Positions 6,713 through 24,704 of a stretch of DNA of 32,942 nt are shown piece by piece (position 1 is the stretch's first letter; the number at the start of each line of letters is the position of its first letter). Under the pieces are notes generated by a model. That model made no database searches, was not told the origin of the DNA, and worked only from the letters and a program-made list of their open reading frames with translations. Where the stretch lies: NCBI GenBank assembly GCA_018303505.1, contig JAGVYA010000031.1, positions 1 through 32,942 of the forward strand. Direction: 5' to 3'. The translations under genes and the position numbers were made by a program. Origin of the DNA: Candidatus Woesearchaeota archaeon (GTDB taxonomy: Archaea > Nanobdellota > Nanobdellia > Woesearchaeales > GW2011-AR4).

Positions 6713-7096
6713 CTACTGCCTTCTGGGATCTAGCCATTCTTTCCTAAATTTAGTGCTTCCATTAACCATAATTTCAGATAAATTTAATTTTATGTTATTG
6801 CATTCTATAAAACTGTCTGAGCTATTGCTAATCATATACTCCTTGTCATCGCATTTTACAAATAATTCATCATGGCAAAATATATGCTCATCTCTTTCCT
6901 CGCAAACAGCCTTTGTGATAATTTTGAAGTCATTTTTTTCAAAACTTATATTATTTTTTGAATCTTTCACAGCATACCCGGTTGCTTCTTTATTGTCAAT
7001 TAAAGCCAATGCAATGATTGCAACTATCAAAACAAATTCGACAATAAATAATACTTTGATCAGTTTACCAAACCGATTGCTTGCCATCCTTATCAT
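6713..7096 (-). CDS. Small single-pass membrane protein with TGYAV juxtamembrane motif
   Basis: FVLIVAIIALALIDNKEATGYAVKDS...; the overlapping + ORF 6672-7100 lacks protein-like features. Confidence 0.6.
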   Translation of the reverse strand: MIRMASNRFGKLIKVLFIVEFVLIVAIIALALIDNKEATGYAVKDSKNNISFEKNDFKIITKAVCEERDEHIFCHDELFVKCDDKEYMISNSSDSFIECNNIKLNLSEIMVNGSTKFRKEWLDPRRQ

Positions 7097-7241
7097 TTAA
7101 CTATTAAGTTACCTGTATTTCCTATGCTTAAATCATCGAATTATTATTTGTCAATTATTTTAATTGAGGTTATTTTTTTCAAATGTTGTATTAGAATGAA
7201 ATTCCTCAGAAAGTTTTAAATACTCACTTTTATTTTGCTTA

Positions 7242-7496
7242 TTGAGTGATGTTGATATGGTAGAGTTAAAGGTTGAAATTCCAGAAAGATTTACTAAGAT
7301 TATTGGAGATGAGCTTAAAAAGTCATCTACAAAAGCATTACTTAGGGAAGCTGTAGAAGAAAAACTTAAAGTATTACTTTTATTTAAAGCAGTTGATGGC
7401 ATATTAAAGAAAAGCAAACTTTCTGATGATAACTTCTCAAAACTAGTAGAAGAATATAGAGGCAACTTAGCTAAAAGATATGGCATCTCTTCATAA
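7242..7496 (+). CDS. Antitoxin-like protein preceding PIN toxin
   Basis: 84 aa, charged, ends 12 bp before the PIN ORF; TATA-like TTTTAAATAC just upstream. Alternative Met start at 7257. Confidence 0.65.
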   Translation: MSDVDMVELKVEIPERFTKIIGDELKKSSTKALLREAVEEKLKVLLLFKAVDGILKKSKLSDDNFSKLVEEYRGNLAKRYGISS

Positions 7497-7508
7497 AAGG
7501 CATTACAA

Positions 7509-13807: not shown

Positions 13808-16231
13808 TTATCCTGTGTCATTAACTATAATCTGTCCTGTTGATAATCCAGTCTCATCAGTTGCATTTGCTGTTATGTTAATTATGTCATTAAGTTCTAT
13901 TTGCTGTAAAGACTTATTTAAGGTTGCATTAACAATTGGTGCTGTTGTGTCTGCTACGCTAACAGTAAATATAGTTTCATTCTGCTTTAAATTTCCACTT
14001 GTATCATTAACCCTTCCAGTAACATTAACAACACATCCTGCACAACTAACAGTAAAGTTTTGTGAAAATTGAGCAGTTGCTCCAGATAACGTAAAGTTAA
14101 AATATCTATTGGCACCAGTATCATTGATAATCATTTGACCTGTATGTAATGCAGTTTCATCTGTTGCATTAAAGCTTGCATTTATTACATCATTCTGCAA
14201 AATGTTTGAAATTGATTTGTTTAATGAGCCGTTAATGATTGGCGCTAATTTTGAAACAATATGAATCGTAACATTTGTAGAGTCATTGCTTGGCAATAAT
14301 GTGGAAGTTGCATTCACATCAATTAACCAAAATGTTCCTACAGAGCCTGTGGCTTTAATCGTATAATTGAGCTGACAATTGTCGCCTGCATTCATAATCC
14401 CGCATGATAAGTTGTTAAGCCTTTCATCATTGTCGGGATCGCCAATTTGAGCAGAATCGATTGACACTGAAAATGTATTAATAGTCGTATTTTTTTGAAT
14501 ATTAGAAATGTTCTCAAACAAGCTTAAATTAAGGTTCATTGCCGCAATAATATCAATTAATCCGTCATTTGTAGCATCTCCTATATCAATATCCCTACCA
14601 ACACCTGTTATGGATGAAGTTAAGTTTGTTTCTTTCCAACCACTGGTATTTTCGTAAAGTCTGGCTCTAGATGGTCCACCACTATCATCGTCTGTTATCA
14701 CTGCGATATCAATCCGACCATCGTGATTCGCATCACCAATATCTATACCATCAACAAGATAGCTAGTTTGGTTTGTGATATTGAATTGTACCCATACACC
14801 AGTTTCATTATCTATAATCACAAGCCTTCCAACAGTATTTGAACCAGCATTGTTATGGAAAGCAATAACAATCTCATTCCTACCATCATTGTCTGGATCC
14901 CCAATTTCTAGGCGCTCACCCATTATGTCTAGTCCTCTTTGCAATTCTGTTATATCTGTCCTCACCCATGTTAAGGAACTATTCTTAAACATACTTACCT
15001 GTGAAGCTTCGTTTTCATCACTGCTGACATTGGAGTACAGCACAACAATCTCATTCAAGCCATCATTATCAACATCTCCAATATCAACATCTTGCACGCT
15101 ATTAGTTACATCATTGCCGGTTATATTAGTTTCATTCCATACACCATCATTAAACTTATACATTCGCAGACGTGCTACATCTTTAGGCTCAGTAGTTGTA
15201 ATACGTTCTAAACCAATAACTATTTCATTCTTGCCGTCATTATCAGCATCACCAATTTCTAAATCTTCTATATGCAGAGTAGTATTGGTAATATTTGTTT
15301 GAATCCATGTGCCAGAAGAAACATTGTAATCATACACCATTAGATGTATTTTACTATTAGAATATAAGCCAGCTACAATTTCATTCATTCCATCATTATC
15401 TGCATCATCTATGTCGATTGCTTCAATTTGATCTGGAACATTTGAAATGTTTGTTTCGCGCCAGGCTCCATTAACATACTCATAAAGTCTTAATTCATTT
15501 AAGACTGGGAAAAGTGCAACCACAATATCTTGGTCACGTCTGCTCCTAAGTATGAAGAAAGGAGTTTCGTTTAGCAAGGTAGAAATATTAGTGGCAGGAC
15601 CAACATCACCACTTGCGTTATAGCGCGCTACAACATTCACATTACCACAAGAGCCTAAGTTACCACTACAAGTTATTGTAACATTGAAATCAAAGGTGCT
15701 TCCCTTTAATACCTCAATTGTATGATCTGTAGGAGGAGCATTCACAGTTGCATTTAGCTTTGCATAAGCAACAGTAAATATCGTTTCATTTTGCCGTAAA
15801 TTATTGCTTGTGTCATTAACCCTTCCAGTAACATTAACAACACATCCTGCTGCACAACTAACAGTAAAGTTTTGTGAAAATTGAGCAGTTGCTCCAGATA
15901 ACGTAAAGTTAAAATATCTATTGGCACCAGTATCATTAATAATCACTTGACCTGTATGTAATCCAGTCTCATCCGTTGCATTAAAGCTTGCATTTATTAC
16001 ATCATTCTGCAAAATGTTTGAAATTGATTTGTTTAATGAGCCGTTAATGATTGGCGCTGTCGCATCAGCTACAGTAATTAAAGTAGAATTTTGCTTTACG
16101 TTATTGCTAGTGTCAGTAGCGTACATAGTAAAGTTAATCACACCTCCAGAAGTTAGTTTTGTTGCATTGCTAACTTGAGCAGTTGTGCTGCTTAATGTAA
16201 AGTTAATTTTGGTAAGTATGCCGCTCCTCAT
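13808..16231 (-). CDS. Giant surface protein, central segment (Ig-like modules flanking FG-GAP/VCBS-like repeats)
   Basis: Repeated IDIGDADNDG.NEIV motifs (about 14400-15560) and PIINGSLNKSISNILQNDVINASFNATDETG modules; no signal peptide; ends abruptly at ...GQIIVNDTG*. Confidence 0.75.
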   Translation of the reverse strand: MRSGILTKINFTLSSTTAQVSNATKLTSGGVINFTMYATDTSNNVKQNSTLITVADATAPIINGSLNKSISNILQNDVINASFNATDETGLHTGQVIINDTGANRYFNFTLSGATAQFSQNFTVSCAAGCVVNVTGRVNDTSNNLRQNETIFTVAYAKLNATVNAPPTDHTIEVLKGSTFDFNVTITCSGNLGSCGNVNVVARYNASGDVGPATNISTLLNETPFFILRSRRDQDIVVALFPVLNELRLYEYVNGAWRETNISNVPDQIEAIDIDDADNDGMNEIVAGLYSNSKIHLMVYDYNVSSGTWIQTNITNTTLHIEDLEIGDADNDGKNEIVIGLERITTTEPKDVARLRMYKFNDGVWNETNITGNDVTNSVQDVDIGDVDNDGLNEIVVLYSNVSSDENEASQVSMFKNSSLTWVRTDITELQRGLDIMGERLEIGDPDNDGRNEIVIAFHNNAGSNTVGRLVIIDNETGVWVQFNITNQTSYLVDGIDIGDANHDGRIDIAVITDDDSGGPSRARLYENTSGWKETNLTSSITGVGRDIDIGDATNDGLIDIIAAMNLNLSLFENISNIQKNTTINTFSVSIDSAQIGDPDNDERLNNLSCGIMNAGDNCQLNYTIKATGSVGTFWLIDVNATSTLLPSNDSTNVTIHIVSKLAPIINGSLNKSISNILQNDVINASFNATDETALHTGQMIINDTGANRYFNFTLSGATAQFSQNFTVSCAGCVVNVTGRVNDTSGNLKQNETIFTVSVADTTAPIVNATLNKSLQQIELNDIINITANATDETGLSTGQIIVNDTG
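13985..14250 (-). repeat. Near-identical ~270 bp direct repeat, partner of 15785-16060
   Basis: Both encode NRYFNFTLSGATAQFSQNFTVSCA(A)GCVVNVTGRVNDTS and neighbouring sequence with very few differences and a 3-bp indel. Confidence 0.8.
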
Positions 16232-19200
16232 TCTGCTTTCTGTTGCTGGAGTTGTCTATTGCTATGCCCGTTATATTGATTACAGTTCCAGCACTCTCGC
16301 TTATGGTGAAGTTCTGGGAGCATTGCTGCGTATTTCCAGCAACATAGCTTGCAAAGCTGAAATTAAAGTATCTTACTGCTCCAGTTGAGTTTATTGTGAT
16401 GGTGCAGTTGAAGTCATCTGCATTGCTTTCATCTGTCATATTGAAGCTTGCGTTTATTACGTCATTTTGCAAGATGTTGCTTAATGACTTGTTTAAAGTT
16501 CCGTTTATGATTGGCTTTGTTGTGTCGCCTGCTGGTGCTGGACTTACAGTCAAACTAAAATTATCATCACCAAAAGCATTATTAGAAGAATTATCATAAC
16601 CTCTGCAATTCCAGATGTAATTTCCATCTGCTATGCTGCTTATTGCCCAACTGCTTGTGTTATAAAGCACAGGCTTATTGTCAGTTGCATTAAACGTAAA
16701 ATTAGCACTCCATCTTGAGCCATCAACAACAGCACCAGAAATGTTATGATACAATGTTATGTTAGTCAAGTTAATATTATCATTTGCAGAGCATTGGAAT
16801 GTTACACTGCCATCTGTGTCTGTTGTTCCATTAGCAGGACTATCAAGCCTTACCCCGCTAAGATTAATGCTATAGTTAGTGAATCTTGTTACATTGAAAG
16901 AAACTAAAGATAAGTCTCTTGTTGAATTTGTCTGTAAAGCACATCTAAAGTCATTATTATCAACACCAACACAGCCATCCCTAACACTATCCTTGCTTAT
17001 TCTTGTAACATTCAAAACCCCCAATCCATTTAAGTTATTTAAATTAATCTCAGCACTTTGGTTTAAATCGCTTGTAGTGTCAGAATCAACAAAAACCAAG
17101 TTTTTAGCTATCGAAATGTTATTATTAAAGTCAATCGTTGCAAAGCTTCCAATATTGTTCTTAAACCTTACTCTGCCAAATTCATTGAACCTTGCAACTT
17201 GAGGGCTTGGAGTTGGGGTTAATGAGCCAATAGCTAAAGAGCTGTTAAATTCAATCAAGATTGTGCCGTTTACATTTGAAGCGTCTAATTGTGCCTGCAC
17301 TTCAACGTAATTTCCCTTTAATGTAATATCGCCTGATACATCTCCAGTTACATTCATCCTTACAGTAGAACTTACATTCAAAACATTAGAAGCATTTATT
17401 GTTATTGATTTACCATCTCCATTAGTGCAAGCTCCTACTTCTCCTCTTATTGCTGTTATATTTCCACTATATGTTATGTTTTGACTGCCAACAATTGTTA
17501 TTGTTCCTCCATCTCCTCTGTTGCCATTAGTAGCAGTGCAAGTACCGCTATCTCCAGTCCCGCCTCTTGCGAATATGTTTCCGTTTATGTCAAAGCTGTT
17601 GGTAACATTCAATATCAAAGTGCCTCCATTGCCTCCATTGCCATTATTTGCAGCTCCTGAATGGTCGCCTCCATCCAAGCTTATGTTGCCATTAAAGTAC
17701 ATTGTAGTTGCTGTTATAGTTATTGAAGCTCCTGCACCTGCAAATTGTAATAAAATATCATTCATACCAAGCCCTTTTCCAGAAATTAATCCAGTCGTGG
17801 TTAAATTCAGAATATCAGCTACTATTGTCAAGTTAGCTCCAAGATTTCTTGCAGTAGGATTATTATTCCCATTGTTATTAGCTCCATATATTCCTGTTAT
17901 AGTTATGTTTGAGGCATTAATAGTCCCTGCAACTTTAATGTTTGTGCCGTTTATCTTCTGGGCATAGATTTCTGAATTTTTGTATTCACCATTAGGACAT
18001 GCACCTACCTCACCAGAAGATGTGTCAATATTTCCACCAATTGCAAGAGCATTTTTGTTTGTAATATTAACAGAGCCTCCATCGCCTCTAATGCCACTAC
18101 TTGCAGCGCAAACAGCGCTGTCTCCTGTTCCTCCTCTTGCAAATATATTGCCGTTAATGTCAAAACTGTTGGTTATGTCTAAAATTAAAGTTCCTCCATG
18201 TCCACCAGCACCATTATCTATAGTACCACTATGGTCGCCACCATCTAAGGTAATATTTCCATCAAAATACATTGTAGTTGCATTAATGTTTATGTTAGCT
18301 CCTGCTCCTCCAAATTCATTTTCAGCAACACCCAAATCAAGCCCAGTTCCTGATATTACTCCTGTAGAAGTTAAATTTAATATATCAGCTTTTATTGTCA
18401 AATTCTGCCCATTGTTTCTAACACCAGTAGCTTCCCCATTGCCATTACCATCAACTCCATAAACACCAGTTATTGTTATGTTTGAAGCATTTATTATTCC
18501 TGCAACTTTCACATTTGTTCCGTTTATCTTCTGGGCATATATTTCTGACTTTTTGTAAACACCTGAACGACAAGCTCCAGCCTCACCAGGAGATGTGCCA
18601 ATGCTTCCGCTGATAACATTAGCGTTTTTGTTTGTTATATTTACAGAACCACCATCTCCTCTTAATCCATTGTCTACATTATCACAGCCATTGCTATCGC
18701 TAGTTCCTCCTCTTGCAAATATATTGCCGTTAATGTCAAAGCTATTGGTTATGCTTAATATCACATCTCCAGCATCACCGCCACTGCCGCTATTTGTAGT
18801 TCCACTATGGTCTCCTCCATCAACTGTTATATTGCCGTTAAAATAGAATGTCTTTGCAGATATGTTTACAATGCCTCCTTTGCCTCCAAAACCTTGAGCA
18901 GTAGTGCCAGTATTCCTTCCCCCTGATGTTATTATTACCGCATCACTTGTTAAATTTACAACATCCGCTTCTATTGTAATATTTCCGCCAGAAAAGCAGG
19001 AAGCTCCAGCAGCAGGAACACATCCTGTGGCATTAAAGAAAATGCCTCCTCCGCTTCTTATTGTCAAGTTACCAGTTAGGTTGATGAATAGCTTGATTGC
19101 AGTTGCATTGACTAATCTGCCAGAGCCTGTAATAAGAACATTATTTGCGCTTAGAACATCAAAGCTGTTGTTTATTCTTTTGGTTGATGAAATAGTGCAT

Positions 19201-22200
19201 GTCGTTGTTAAATCTCCGCTATCACAGAAAGCTGCAGGCAGTGCTTGGTCGCTTGCAATCTGCCACTGCCTTGCTTCTTTCCAGTTGCCAATGTCCAGCT
19301 CTCCCAACAGATAAAACTCAGGCGAAATGTCAGGCGCATCAAACTTATAGGAAATAACATATTTAGAGCCTTTTTTCAAATTGGCATTTATGCTTATTAT
19401 TTTTGTATCATTGATTGTTGTGATCACTATTGGGCTGGATTGCGCTTGTGCTGAAGGAATTAAGGTGAAGAAATTGAGTATGTTATTTTTCAGATTTATT
19501 TCGTTATTGGAATTTTCTTTATTTAAAATAGAAACATTTTTATAGTTGATATACTCTTTTAGCTCTATAGTGTGAGATTCGGCAATTTCCGAGCCCAATA
19601 AGAATTCGTGTGAAATTCCTCTTAGCCAAACAGGTGTTTTGTCCAGACTACGTGTCTGTTTTCTTTCATTTTTTTCATTATCTACATTAACGTATAAGTG
19701 TGAGCGCGGCGAGATTTCCGAACCATTATCGAACCAGCATCTTCCTCTTAGCCAAAAAGGAGCTTTGTCCATTAAGCTACGCGCCCTTTCCACTACGTAA
19801 GCGTCAGTCTCATCAGAAACATTTATATAATTATGGGTAATATAAGAATCATATTCCCGTGAGTCGGAGAGGTGTTCTATCCATTGAGCTTCATTTTGAG
19901 ATGAGAGGGCTAAATACCCTCTGAACCCTTTATTTTCTTTTTCATTTAGTTTTGTTATTGAAGCTTCATTTATTAAGGATTCTAGTTTAATGCCTTTTGA
20001 CGCTGGGGGCGGGAGTTCCATTCCATTACGAATGAAATTTGAACCCGCGGATCTTTGTGGGAAACCAGATCCTCGGTCTGGCGCAATGGCCTGACTATGC
20101 GACCCCAGCCTCGTCAAAGCCTTTTCAACCGAAAGATATTTAAATAAGTATTGTTTTATAGACTCTGTCTTTGTGGAAACCAGATATTGTCTGGGTGCTA
20201 TGGCTTGGCTATGGAACCCGTTTTCTTCTTTTTCATTTAGTTTTGTTATTGAGCTTTGTATTAACGCTTTATTATCTACTTCAACTCCTGACAATATAAT
20301 TTCAGAAGGTTGCTCAACAACCTCATAAAACTCAACTTCGCTAATATCAAAAGAGCTTGGCACATACTCATTTATTATTCCATTATAATTTTTGTTTGCA
20401 ATTATTGAAATATTCATTGCATATGGAGCAGGAGGATAAATCCTTGTTGCTGAATGCCTTGCAACATCAAAGTCAACAGAGCTTGCAACAGTAAAATTGT
20501 CTTCTATGCTTCTTATGCCATTATAAGTCACAGCAGTTAAATTCATCAAATAAGTTCCAATTCCATTAACTTTATAGCTTGTATAATAATCTGATAATAT
20601 AGTTACACCTAAAGTATTGCATTCTGGGCTTATTTTTATATAGTTATTAGCAGTTGTTAATGTTGTTTTTTCATTCAATGGATTAGTAATTTCTAAAGTA
20701 ACATCTGCATCACAAACAATTTTGCCTTTGTCATCCAAAACAGCAATTCCAATAAAGCTATGCTCATTTGGCAAATAAATTGACTTGTTGACATTAATGG
20801 CTAAAACTCCCCAAGTAAAGTCCTGCTCTTGGGAATATGCAGCACCATCCTTTACCAGCTCTAATTTTATTGTGTATTTTCCAGCTCTAAATTGTCTTTG
20901 CTTTGGCAGCTTAAGCTCGAATTTGCCTTCTCTTAATTCTTCTATTTCTATATTAATGTCTTTTGAATTGCCTTCAGAATCAAGCACAAATGCCTCTAAA
21001 CTTTCATTTTGCTTTACAAACTTTTTCTTTTGTTTTTTAATTTCTGCAGCTTGAATACCAAATTTAGCTTTTTCATTTTTAATTTTTTGTCTCAAAACTT
21101 TTAATTCTTCTTCTGTTTTATCTGTTATTTCTTCATAAACCTCATATTCTTCTTTCCATTCATTTTGTTTAATCAATTCTTGTTTTGTCAAATACTCAAA
21201 GTCTATCTCAACATCTTCATCAAAGCTGAAATCTTTTTTCTTTAGAATTATGCTTGGAGTCAAATCAATTGTTGCATTCACCACATTGACAGAAAACACA
21301 TTTGAAACAGCTAAGCTGTCGCTTTTGTTTGCTGTTATATAAGTAAACACAGTTCCAACAAAATCTTTGTCAGGAATTATGGTTGCAATGTTGTTGTCAA
21401 ACAATATGCTAATTCCATCTTGCTTGAAGTAATTGAAGATTGTGTTTTCATCAATATTTGAGAAATAATTGCTTAAATTTAGAGTTGTATTTTCATTAAT
21501 GTTAATTGTTATATTTGGAATTTCCTTAATTAAGCCAAATTCCAGCAATGGCAAAATTGTTATATTTAAATTTCCTTCAATAAATCCAGGATCTTCTGCA
21601 GTTAATGTTAATTCATATTGCTGGCCTGGAATTAAATCTTTTATCTTAACCCATTCTCCAAAGCATACCTCGCTTTCATAGTCCCACTGCCTGCATTTGT
21701 ACAATGAATTTGCATTTGCAGTAGCAGTCAATTTGGCATTTTCAAACTCCAGCTCCTCAAGATTGACTGCGTACCTTTTCTTGACATCAACATTTTCAAT
21801 TAAAATTTTCCTGCTTACATTGTCAATTCCAATAGAGGCAGTTAATGGCTTGGTTATATTAGCATTTTCAATGACTAATTTGTCAATTACATTTTCTGTT
21901 GGCACAACCTCAATGTCATAATAGTCAGGCTCTACAAATCCTTCTGTAATTGGCACAGCAGCATTATCTTTGTAAAGCTGATAGCTGCCGGAAACTAATC
22001 CTTCGTCATTAATAACTTCCAAATTAAGCAATACCTTGCTTATTTCCTCAACAATTGAGTATGTTAAAGTCTTTAGGTCTAGTATCGCATTATCTATCTC
22101 AAATATCAGCTTGTAGCTTGTTTCATTAAAGTTGCTTAGTGCGCATGTTTCAACGCATACATTTTCAAAGTCTATAGTTGCAAAATAGTAATTTGCGCTT

Positions 22201-23120
22201 AAATTCTGCCACGAAGAATAATAAATTTCAGCATAGGGCTTTTCCCCTATTTTCCCATAATCAACATAAATGACTTGAGCGCTTGCAATATTATTTAATG
22301 TAGCCCCATACCGCCCGTATGTAGAATAAAACACCTCATTCCAAAGCTCTTTTGACGGGCTTAATCCTATAAAGCCGCAGCATTTATCGCTTCCATAGCA
22401 GACAGTTGTGCTTTTTTCATCCTCAACAGAGTAAACATCCCATCTTGCGCATAGATTGCTTTCATTTACGCTCCAGCTAAATAATGAATTTTCAACAGTC
22501 AAATCTATAACTCCTGATGTAGCTTCATAGCCATTATCATCTGCGTCATAATTAGTTCCAAGTTTGTATTGCAGATTAATTGTGATGATTTTTTCAGGCA
22601 CAATTAAAGCAACTTCCTTGCTTGTCGATTTATCGCCATCATCAGCAGTAAATTCTATTGTTGCAGTGAAGTTACTGCCGTCAGGAATTAAAGTAACTAA
22701 ATTATTTTCAATTGTTACGGATATTTTTTCCGGTGTTGTTGCAGCATAGCTGATTGTATCGTTATTTTCATCAAAGAAGTAATTGCTCAAGTCAATTATA
22801 GTTTTTCCTGCAGCAATAAACTCATTAGCGTCTGATTTCCATACAGGAGGCTTATTTGGCTCAGATTTCTCTGGCTTTTCTTTTTCTTCTTGTTTTGATT
22901 CTTTCTCTGGCTTTTCTTTAGGCTCTTGTGTTTCATTTATTGTAATGGCTGTAGTTTCCGTAGTTGTTGTATTATCATTTGTGTCATTTGTTGTTGCATT
23001 TTCATCTAAAACTGCAAATCCAGTTATTGTTGGTTTATTTAGCGAGAACATTAGAACTATTTGTAACACAATTATTAAAATTAAATAAATCAATCCTGTT
23101 TTTATTTTTAGTTTAATCAT
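16203..23120 (-). CDS. Giant surface protein, N-terminal segment (signal anchor, cadherin/Ig-like regions, tRNA-like insert region, Gly-rich beta-helix repeats)
   Basis: N-terminus MIKLKIKTGLIYLILIIVLQIVLMFSLNKPTITGFAVLDEN; repeated NSFDINGNIFARGGT.DS units; ends in an out-of-module tail EERHTYQN*. Confidence 0.8.
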   Translation of the reverse strand: MIKLKIKTGLIYLILIIVLQIVLMFSLNKPTITGFAVLDENATTNDTNDNTTTTETTAITINETQEPKEKPEKESKQEEKEKPEKSEPNKPPVWKSDANEFIAAGKTIIDLSNYFFDENNDTISYAATTPEKISVTIENNLVTLIPDGSNFTATIEFTADDGDKSTSKEVALIVPEKIITINLQYKLGTNYDADDNGYEATSGVIDLTVENSLFSWSVNESNLCARWDVYSVEDEKSTTVCYGSDKCCGFIGLSPSKELWNEVFYSTYGRYGATLNNIASAQVIYVDYGKIGEKPYAEIYYSSWQNLSANYYFATIDFENVCVETCALSNFNETSYKLIFEIDNAILDLKTLTYSIVEEISKVLLNLEVINDEGLVSGSYQLYKDNAAVPITEGFVEPDYYDIEVVPTENVIDKLVIENANITKPLTASIGIDNVSRKILIENVDVKKRYAVNLEELEFENAKLTATANANSLYKCRQWDYESEVCFGEWVKIKDLIPGQQYELTLTAEDPGFIEGNLNITILPLLEFGLIKEIPNITININENTTLNLSNYFSNIDENTIFNYFKQDGISILFDNNIATIIPDKDFVGTVFTYITANKSDSLAVSNVFSVNVVNATIDLTPSIILKKKDFSFDEDVEIDFEYLTKQELIKQNEWKEEYEVYEEITDKTEEELKVLRQKIKNEKAKFGIQAAEIKKQKKKFVKQNESLEAFVLDSEGNSKDINIEIEELREGKFELKLPKQRQFRAGKYTIKLELVKDGAAYSQEQDFTWGVLAINVNKSIYLPNEHSFIGIAVLDDKGKIVCDADVTLEITNPLNEKTTLTTANNYIKISPECNTLGVTILSDYYTSYKVNGIGTYLMNLTAVTYNGIRSIEDNFTVASSVDFDVARHSATRIYPPAPYAMNISIIANKNYNGIINEYVPSSFDISEVEFYEVVEQPSEIILSGVEVDNKALIQSSITKLNEKEENGFHSQAIAPRQYLVSTKTESIKQYLFKYLSVEKALTRLGSHSQAIAPDRGSGFPQRSAGSNFIRNGMELPPPASKGIKLESLINEASITKLNEKENKGFRGYLALSSQNEAQWIEHLSDSREYDSYITHNYINVSDETDAYVVERARSLMDKAPFWLRGRCWFDNGSEISPRSHLYVNVDNEKNERKQTRSLDKTPVWLRGISHEFLLGSEIAESHTIELKEYINYKNVSILNKENSNNEINLKNNILNFFTLIPSAQAQSSPIVITTINDTKIISINANLKKGSKYVISYKFDAPDISPEFYLLGELDIGNWKEARQWQIASDQALPAAFCDSGDLTTTCTISSTKRINNSFDVLSANNVLITGSGRLVNATAIKLFINLTGNLTIRSGGGIFFNATGCVPAAGASCFSGGNITIEADVVNLTSDAVIITSGGRNTGTTAQGFGGKGGIVNISAKTFYFNGNITVDGGDHSGTTNSGSGGDAGDVILSITNSFDINGNIFARGGTSDSNGCDNVDNGLRGDGGSVNITNKNANVISGSIGTSPGEAGACRSGVYKKSEIYAQKINGTNVKVAGIINASNITITGVYGVDGNGNGEATGVRNNGQNLTIKADILNLTSTGVISGTGLDLGVAENEFGGAGANININATTMYFDGNITLDGGDHSGTIDNGAGGHGGTLILDITNSFDINGNIFARGGTGDSAVCAASSGIRGDGGSVNITNKNALAIGGNIDTSSGEVGACPNGEYKNSEIYAQKINGTNIKVAGTINASNITITGIYGANNNGNNNPTARNLGANLTIVADILNLTTTGLISGKGLGMNDILLQFAGAGASITITATTMYFNGNISLDGGDHSGAANNGNGGNGGTLILNVTNSFDINGNIFARGGTGDSGTCTATNGNRGDGGTITIVGSQNITYSGNITAIRGEVGACTNGDGKSITINASNVLNVSSTVRMNVTGDVSGDITLKGNYVEVQAQLDASNVNGTILIEFNSSLAIGSLTPTPSPQVARFNEFGRVRFKNNIGSFATIDFNNNISIAKNLVFVDSDTTSDLNQSAEINLNNLNGLGVLNVTRISKDSVRDGCVGVDNNDFRCALQTNSTRDLSLVSFNVTRFTNYSINLSGVRLDSPANGTTDTDGSVTFQCSANDNINLTNITLYHNISGAVVDGSRWSANFTFNATDNKPVLYNTSSWAISSIADGNYIWNCRGYDNSSNNAFGDDNFSLTVSPAPAGDTTKPIINGTLNKSLSNILQNDVINASFNMTDESNADDFNCTITINSTGAVRYFNFSFASYVAGNTQQCSQNFTISESAGTVINITGIAIDNSSNRKQNEERHTYQN
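17400..19010 (-). repeat. Three ~570 bp (190-aa) Gly-rich beta-helix repeats
   Basis: Equivalent CTTGC(A/G)AATAT.TT positions at 17566, 18136, 18712 (periods ~571 and ~576). Confidence 0.8.
19570..19658 (-). other. tRNA-like sequence, degenerate, within CDS
   Basis: CAGACACGTAGTCTGGACAAAACACCTGTTTGGCTAAGAGGAA...GGGCTCGGAAATTGCCGAATCTCACAC; parallel to 19702-19786; translated QTRSLDKTPVWLRG. Confidence 0.5.
19702..19786 (-). other. tRNA-like sequence with 7-bp acceptor stem, within CDS
   Basis: GGGCGCG-TA-GCTTAATGGACAAAGC-T-CCTTT-TTGGCTA-AGAGG-AAGAT-GCTGGTTCGATAATGGTTCGGAAATCTCGC-CGCGCTC: acceptor, D and anticodon stems pair; T-arm disrupted. Translated RARSLMDKAPFWLRGRCWF. Confidence 0.7.
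19856..19926 (-). other. tRNA 5'-half-like sequence within CDS
   Basis: GAAGCTCAATGGATAGAACACCTCTCCGACTCACGGG: D-arm signature; translation EAQWIEHLSDSRE is the usual read-through of a tRNA 5' half. Confidence 0.5.
20002..20109 (-). other. tRNA-Leu(GAG)-like sequence with ~23-nt hairpin insertion in the T-arm, within CDS
   Basis: GCTGGGG...CCCCAGC acceptor; D-stem GCA/TGC; CCAGA-CCGAGGA-TCTGG anticodon arm; long variable arm; GCGGGTTCAAAT[TTCATTCGTAATGGAATGGAACT]CCCGC. C33 is atypical, so probably not functional. Confidence 0.75.
20161..20220 (-). other. Second tRNA-Leu-like sequence, degenerate, within CDS
   Basis: GGGTTCCATAGCCAAGCCATAGCACCCAGACAATATCTGGTTTCCACAAAGA aligns with 20002-20109; both translate HSQAIAP in the same frame. 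Confidence 0.6.
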
Positions 23121-24194: not shown

Positions 24195-24704
24195 TCATTT
24201 TTTCTTTTTCTTTGCCCTTTGATAAACAGTCCAGATTGTCCTGTCATCTCTGTTTAGCAGCACGGCAATATTGTGATAAGTAAGCCCGAAAGTGTCTTTT
24301 AAGTAAACAGCAATATTCTCAAGAACGCTGATGTTTCTGTCCTGCAGTATAGAAACAGGAATGGAATAAGGCGAAATCTCTTCAACAACGAACCTTGATT
24401 CCATTTTTTTCTTTGCGTTTCTGTAAGTAACCGCTAATGCTATCTGATTTCTGTTTGTCAAAGAGCCAATTTGCTTGAAGCTGAGAAGCAGATTCTCTCT
24501 CAAATATTTTACAATATTTTCTAAAGAGCTTAAATAATCGTTATTGAAGACAGAAATTGGAACTTTAATCTCTTCCCTTACTTGCACCTTTAGATGCTTA
24601 TTCACAAGCCCAATAATTTCTTCAGAACCAAGCCCTTGTTTTTTTAGATAGTTTAATGTATCTAAAAGTCTTTTTTCAATTGCCTCAAACTCTTTTTTTG
24701 GCAT
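24195..24704 (-). CDS. Tandem helix-turn-helix DNA-binding protein
   Basis: Two copies of IPVSI(F/L)...LS.LENI..YL...(L/F).L.(F/Y)..I..L.NR....(I)W..Y..AKKK; paralog of 30227-30757. Confidence 0.7.
   Translation of the reverse strand: MPKKEFEAIEKRLLDTLNYLKKQGLGSEEIIGLVNKHLKVQVREEIKVPISVFNNDYLSSLENIVKYLRENLLLSFKQIGSLTNRNQIALAVTYRNAKKKMESRFVVEEISPYSIPVSILQDRNISVLENIAVYLKDTFGLTYHNIAVLLNRDDRTIWTVYQRAKKKKK

Follow-up and report, generated by a model that had tools for sequence, protein, structure and literature searches.

tRNA cassettes with matched truncated copies inside a surface-protein gene of a Candidatus Woesearchaeota archaeon

Rickettsia palindromic elements are short palindromes that lie in frame in protein genes and are tolerated there, and the tRNA-Ser(CAG) of Candida, a Ser-type tRNA with a Leu anticodon, is a single essential recoding tRNA. 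The allo-tRNAs (Mukai et al. 2017, reviewed in PMC7609411) are class II tRNAs that combine Ser identity elements with non-Ser anticodons; one of them overlaps an ORF, some are found in polycistrons, and a link to mobile elements or toxin–antitoxin systems has been suggested (PMC7609411).

The window considered here, the whole 32,942-nucleotide stretch of DNA that was analysed, is contig C30 of a 1.3 Mb draft genome (G000) from an archaeon that is tiny and uncultivated, and the relatives with which it was compared are Candidatus Woesearchaeota. One of its surface-protein genes contains an insert that we read as two cassettes, each consisting of a putative intron-bearing tRNA gene and a truncated sense copy of the same tRNA, termed the mimic below. 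The initial annotation had likened the insert to Rickettsia palindromic elements. The analogy holds for the toleration of a small non-coding element in frame within ORFs, but not for the element itself: the cassettes are not small palindromes but apparently intron-bearing tRNA genes with matched truncated copies in direct sense orientation, and they are also found between genes and in inteins. With Candida tRNA-Ser(CAG) they have in common a Ser-type tRNA with a Leu anticodon, whereas they are multi-copy and patchily distributed. The closest in kind are the allo-tRNAs, which the cassette tRNAs resemble in being class II, in G73 (39/39 in the family and 5/5 in an order-wide sample) and in their non-Ser anticodons. 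Allo-tRNAs are, however, bacterial and have an 8/4 or 9/3 acceptor branch, which was tested for and not found here; the cassette tRNAs are archaeal and 7/5, and have a T-loop insertion, mostly Leu anticodons and an adjoining matched truncated copy. Split and permuted archaeal tRNA genes (e.g. PMC3218864) are alike in being archaeal and in having separated tRNA parts and introns at odd positions, whereas in the cassettes a full tRNA adjoins the partial copy and no joining in trans is needed. A literature search found no paper combining Woesearchaeota, tRNA, intron and anticodon. We know of no family that pairs a tRNA with a matched truncated copy, and this pairing is the main novelty; the tRNA half alone would vary a known kind.

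Anatomy of the insert

The host gene, P0001, encodes a 2305-aa surface protein on the minus strand (16203..23120, from the ORF list and translation). Its orthologues in relatives are 56–69% identical, and it has no confident Pfam domain, only a weak Ig-like match. Five tRNA-like stretches had been reported in one uninterrupted minus-strand frame; their coordinates and peptides are correct, and all lie inside this ORF. They are all tRNA-like but not equal, since 20002–20109 and 19702–19786 are complete cloverleaves, and 20161–20220, 19570–19658 and 19856–19926 are partial, without acceptor and T arms. Comparison with insert-free orthologues places the insert at 19440..20340 on the minus strand (edges approximate), corresponding to aa 927–1228 of P0001. 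It is absent from seven orthologues (G004, G010, G023, G027, G030, G035 and G048), in which aa ~927 joins ~1229 directly. Three orthologues contain it (G000, G001 and G003), with a composition that differs among them; the G001 insert contains stop codons and the G001 surface gene is split. The insert peptide, scanned against named genomes, gave no match.

All features of the insert are on the minus strand. They follow one another in transcription order as an A-rich linker, the class II mimic, a TATA-like box, a 108-nt class II tRNA, a second linker, a hairpin, a degenerate class I copy, a second TATA-like box, an 85-nt class I tRNA and the class I mimic. The A-rich linker, which encodes SITKLNEKE, lies at 20221..20255 and has its second copy at 19926–19960; an A-rich leader is present ahead of most mimics. 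The class II mimic (20163..20220; z = 16.1 against shuffles) comprises the D arm, the anticodon region and the 5' part of the V arm, has neither acceptor nor T arm, and finds its best match of 39 in its own tRNA. The TATA-like box TTTAAATA (20137..20144) is 27 nt upstream of the class II tRNA (20002..20109), which was defined by a covariance model (115 bits), alignment and folding, and has the anticodon GAG (Leu codon CTC), C33 and the discriminator G73. A 23-nt insertion in its T loop, located by alignment at 20014..20036, is a probable intron. Between the two tRNA units lies the hairpin GAGGGTATTTAGCCCTC (19905..19921), similar to one in L067, followed by the degenerate, incomplete class I tRNA copy (19851..19893; peptide AQWIEHLS; z = 6.1 when compared with the class I tRNA of G000). 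The TATA-like box TATATAAA (19821..19828) stands ahead of the class I tRNA (19702..19786; covariance model, 107 bits), which is characterised by a GGGCGCG acceptor, A73, the anticodon loop TTGGCTA, a T-loop insertion of about 13 nt and a mismatched T stem. Its mimic is downstream, at 19570..19658 (z = 12.5), with another TATA-like box, TATAAAAA, past it (19537..19544). A second class II unit in the same genome (L320; G000:C22, about 6868–7500) has an anticodon read as GAC and a palindromic insertion near the tRNA 3' end.

ARAGORN and Rfam gathering-threshold scans of the window found no tRNA, both programs missing the two tRNAs because each T loop bears an insertion; a permissive Rfam scan gave weak tmRNA fragments only. 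Scoring with tRNA covariance models had been proposed as a check, and a purpose-built class I model returned six strong copies, with only weak matches elsewhere. The class II copy has its acceptor (7 bp), anticodon and T (5 bp) stems all paired, and its T loop reads as the canonical TTCAAAT once the insertion is removed. Folding of 20002–20109 is cloverleaf-like (z = −3.5; −5.7 in the G003 relative), and the class I tRNA alone (19702–19786) folds like shuffled sequence (z = −0.4; −2.3 in the G016 relative). Bulged hairpins were seen in folding, and the T-loop insertions are candidate BHB introns. Many introns, sometimes several in each gene, are also found in the ordinary tRNAs of the genus (G000 and relatives, e.g. 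L009, L011, L131 and L287), and L131 has an apparent tandem copy of its own anticodon arm. Where a functional tRNA has U33 and a purine at 37, the G000 class II tRNA has C33 and class I members have T37; other class II subgroups are mostly T33. Given C33 in the class II tRNA and the mismatched T stem of the class I tRNA, the window copies may be decaying. The tRNA likeness is beyond chance, because the units recur in about ten relatives and beyond the family.

Class II tRNAs and their mimics in the family and the order

Two covariance models, one for each tRNA class, were constructed and run on 36 family genomes, and 80 class II matches were gathered with up to 230 bases upstream. The part of each tRNA from the D arm to the V arm was aligned to its upstream DNA and compared with dinucleotide shuffles. 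The outcome was bimodal, with an upstream copy in 39/80 (z 3.8–26) and none in 41/80 (z up to 3.65), the cut having been set post hoc and not being clean at its lower edge, where the weakest member, G012_C8 (z 3.82), is close to two ordinary tRNAs (3.65 and 3.54). This member was retained for its promoter motif, G73 and T-loop insertion. Two of the 39 look identical (both come from G019), and related genomes do not count as independent samples.

The discriminator is G73 in 39/39 mimic-bearing tRNAs, and the other 41 are Leu tRNAs with A73 or Ser tRNAs with G73. A T-loop insertion of 11–38 nt is likewise present in 39/39, compared with 9/24 ordinary Ser and 1/17 ordinary Leu tRNAs, so that the insertion alone does not define the mimic-bearing group. 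The insertion was also rejected as the cause of the mimic, the nine ordinary Ser tRNAs having one without the other. The anticodon is Leu in 36 of the 39, the remainder being Val, Phe and Asp; two ambiguous anticodon loops were scripted as TCA and TGA and read by eye as CAG and GAG. The acceptor and D arm are nearer those of ordinary Ser tRNAs in 33/39, nearer Leu in four and tied in two. Most mimic-bearing tRNAs, and 0/41 of the others, can form an additional helix of 4 bp or more beyond the acceptor; it includes G73 in a base pair and leaves a bulge of 3 nt on the 5' side. An order-wide sample of loci not used before yielded a copy in five of 27 testable matches (z 6.2–23.4; z ≤ 2.1 for the other 22), and G73 and a T-loop insertion are present in all five tRNAs, whose anticodons, read by eye, are non-Ser.

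These tRNAs are likely charged with Ser, because archaeal LeuRS has G73 as an antideterminant, and the anticodon plays no part in Ser identity (PMC9976931). Ordinary A73 Leu tRNAs exist in G000 for CAA, UAA and GAG; the tRNA inside the ORF is thus extra, and for these three anticodons it is ruled out that a G73 tRNA alone reads the Leu codons concerned. For CAG/UAG the search of G000 gave no A73 Leu tRNA, so some members could be real Leu tRNAs.

The mimic matches the tRNA at about 70–86% identity from the D arm through the anticodon arm to the mid V arm, and ends before the T arm; by region, identity is 0.86 in the mid V arm, 0.51 in the V-arm 3' third and 0.26 in the T stem. Its own tRNA is the best match for 31/39 mimics and the second to fourth best for the rest (mean score 43 versus 17.5), and stretches of about 40 nt are identical between mimic and tRNA in G016:C7 and G147. 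Loop and stem identity are similar in the D and anticodon arms, which gives no support to a copying of loops only. In the class I type (six strong copies) the matched copy is downstream of the tRNA (z 11–19), and class I mimics in different genomes match the anticodon-loop type of their own tRNA. In L289, L314 and L327 the mimic is not followed by a full tRNA, L314 apparently retaining acceptor ends only.

The folding of 31 cassettes was compared with that of the same cassettes with shuffled mimics. Pairs between mimic and tRNA amount to 0.53, against 0.72 with shuffled mimics, and the acceptor stem has a probability of 0.96, against 0.92. Pairing is lower and the tRNA folds better than with shuffled mimics, so the mimic was rejected as an antisense of the tRNA; by these models it imitates the tRNA and is not predicted to block it.

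Genomic setting, reading frames and promoters

The same modules, which the initial annotation had suggested looking for in other ORFs, are present in about ten relatives. An open frame crosses mimic and tRNA in 10/39 units, all three frames being used across them. These ten units lie in surface-protein genes, in the split G001 surface gene (two units) and in one G009 intein (twice), the latter assigned by Pfam Intein_splicing (E = 1e-17). In the other 29/39 units, 0/87 frames are open. A class I unit of G016 lies inside another ORF with intein-like halves. Some units stand alone, and others are co-oriented between genes that resemble purine-synthesis genes, as judged by reading the sequence. 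At an orthologous intergenic site beside a Sua5-like gene, also read from the sequence, the unit is found in G000 and G016 and missing in G003.

The number of variable columns per codon position in six related units is 12/13/15 in the tRNA and 16/17/19 in the mimic. Changes between G000 and G003 at positions 1/2/3 are 41/28/74 and 69/47/138 in the host gene and 22/19/23 in the insert; this flat pattern, as opposed to the position-3 excess of the host, points to constraint on the RNA, not on the peptide. Comparison shows the cassette to be a repeated unit across Woesearchaeales; the frame mostly stays open where a cassette falls in a protein gene, and selection within the cassette acts on RNA or DNA, not on codons. 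These data agree with the proposal that an expanding element of tRNA origin is tolerated in frame within a linker under little constraint, with the insert in three orthologues and missing from seven, units recurring in unrelated ORFs, inteins and intergenic sites, and no codon-level constraint.

The surface genes of these genomes also house other nested genes. An aspartyl-protease-like gene is antisense within the G001 surface ORF, beside the insert (L055:1035–1424, minus strand). Genes for DUF5615 PIN-like toxins lie antisense in or beside the same surface-protein ORFs of relatives, near tRNA units and with the sense frame open (L058:2020–2430, L061:696–1085 and L059:882–1274, all minus strand), the one in L061 being accompanied by a DUF433 gene. 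A Sigma-70 region 4-like helix-turn-helix gene is found upstream of surface-protein genes, in the window (24195–24704, minus strand) and in another genome (L062:849–1379, plus strand).

In the ordinary tRNAs of these genomes the TATA box is mostly 22–27 nt upstream. Cassettes with their own upstream promoter have a TATA box only 6–20 nt before the tRNA, which is too close for a leaderless start. The motif ACTGGACAT..GTGAAnTATWTAAA is found ahead of many stand-alone units and has about fifty matches in 16/20 genus genomes, with none for a reversed control pattern. Among 44 distinct motif sites with enough sequence, 12 precede a G73 class II tRNA; other sites precede phage-type integrases, LAGLIDADG endonucleases, DUF5131, DUF763, an RNase-H-type protein and a zinc-ribbon mini-gene. 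The shared motif suggests common control with mobile- or repair-type genes but does not identify one of these as the mover of the unit; a stress or repair regulon may be what it marks. Four pattern scans of viral contigs, run to look for a virus origin, were empty, and no mobility protein or target-site duplication attributable to the unit was found. We infer the mobility of the cassette from its distribution.

Origin and role of the cassettes

The reading that we favour, with a probability of about 0.62, is that the insert consists of two tRNA cassettes that spread selfishly or horizontally and are tolerated in frame, the tRNA being spliced and Ser-charged and the mimic acting as a decoy. Such units would persist in ORFs where the frame stays open, the frame around them being kept presumably because the surrounding protein needs it. 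The tRNA would arise either by transcription from the TATA box that lies between it and the mimic or as part of the host transcript; after splicing at the T loop it would receive Ser and therefore misread Leu codons. The mimic, unable to form an acceptor or a T arm, would lure away any factor that recognises the tRNA through its D, anticodon and V arms; we infer this decoy role, which is the least certain step. A wider interpretation, possible but rather doubtful, is that the missense tRNA, with a Ser body and a Leu anticodon, and its dedicated imitating RNA would form a selfish or regulatory unit of a new class, a tRNA-based toxin/decoy or diversity system in DPANN archaea that can reside in coding sequence and inteins and leave them intact.

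The mimic might instead be a scar of site-specific recombination. In that case an element would have inserted into the tRNA gene close to the V arm and supplied it with a new 5' part; after the loss of the element the displaced 5' part would have remained upstream, as in attL/attR. The sharp end of the mimic at the V-arm 3' strand, the perfect matches over about 40 nt in G016 and G147, and the promoter motif that tyrosine recombinases and LAGLIDADG genes have in common with some cassettes would all fit this origin, which we nevertheless consider unlikely: 0/41 ordinary Leu/Ser tRNAs show such a copy, mimics continue to match their own tRNA across genomes, and the class I copy lies downstream. 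The matching of mimic and tRNA, maintained across the order, also speaks against the improbable idea that ordinary tRNA genes or pseudogenes were accidentally captured by a dispensable surface gene and that their pairing is functionless. Some copies are indeed defective, the G001 insert has stops and surface genes contain other nested genes, but ordinary Leu/Ser tRNAs differ in the discriminator and are without mimics.

Two further explanations have very little in their favour. A mimic that lies upstream in the same transcript and has the 5' strands of the tRNA stems could be an antisense or misfolding leader that prevents tRNA folding within the host mRNA, a role made highly improbable by the folding of the 31 cassettes, which contradicts it at equilibrium. 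We give hardly any credence to an ancient protein domain with incidental tRNA likeness; the frame is open in many genomes and peptide motifs recur, but the insert is missing from seven orthologues, three frames are used, the codon pattern is flat, cloverleaves are complete and the same units stand between genes without an open frame.

If the favoured reading of two spreading tRNA cassettes is true, archaeal genomes contain a repeated unit in which a tRNA is accompanied by a truncated imitation of itself. Annotation would overlook the cassette, since T-loop introns escape tRNA finders and gene callers report a single long ORF; DPANN tRNA counts and some surface-protein sequences would then need correction. 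The cassette would be a natural example of RNA genes lying in sense orientation within protein genes and inteins, and the misreading of Leu codons as Ser in some archaea would become testable.
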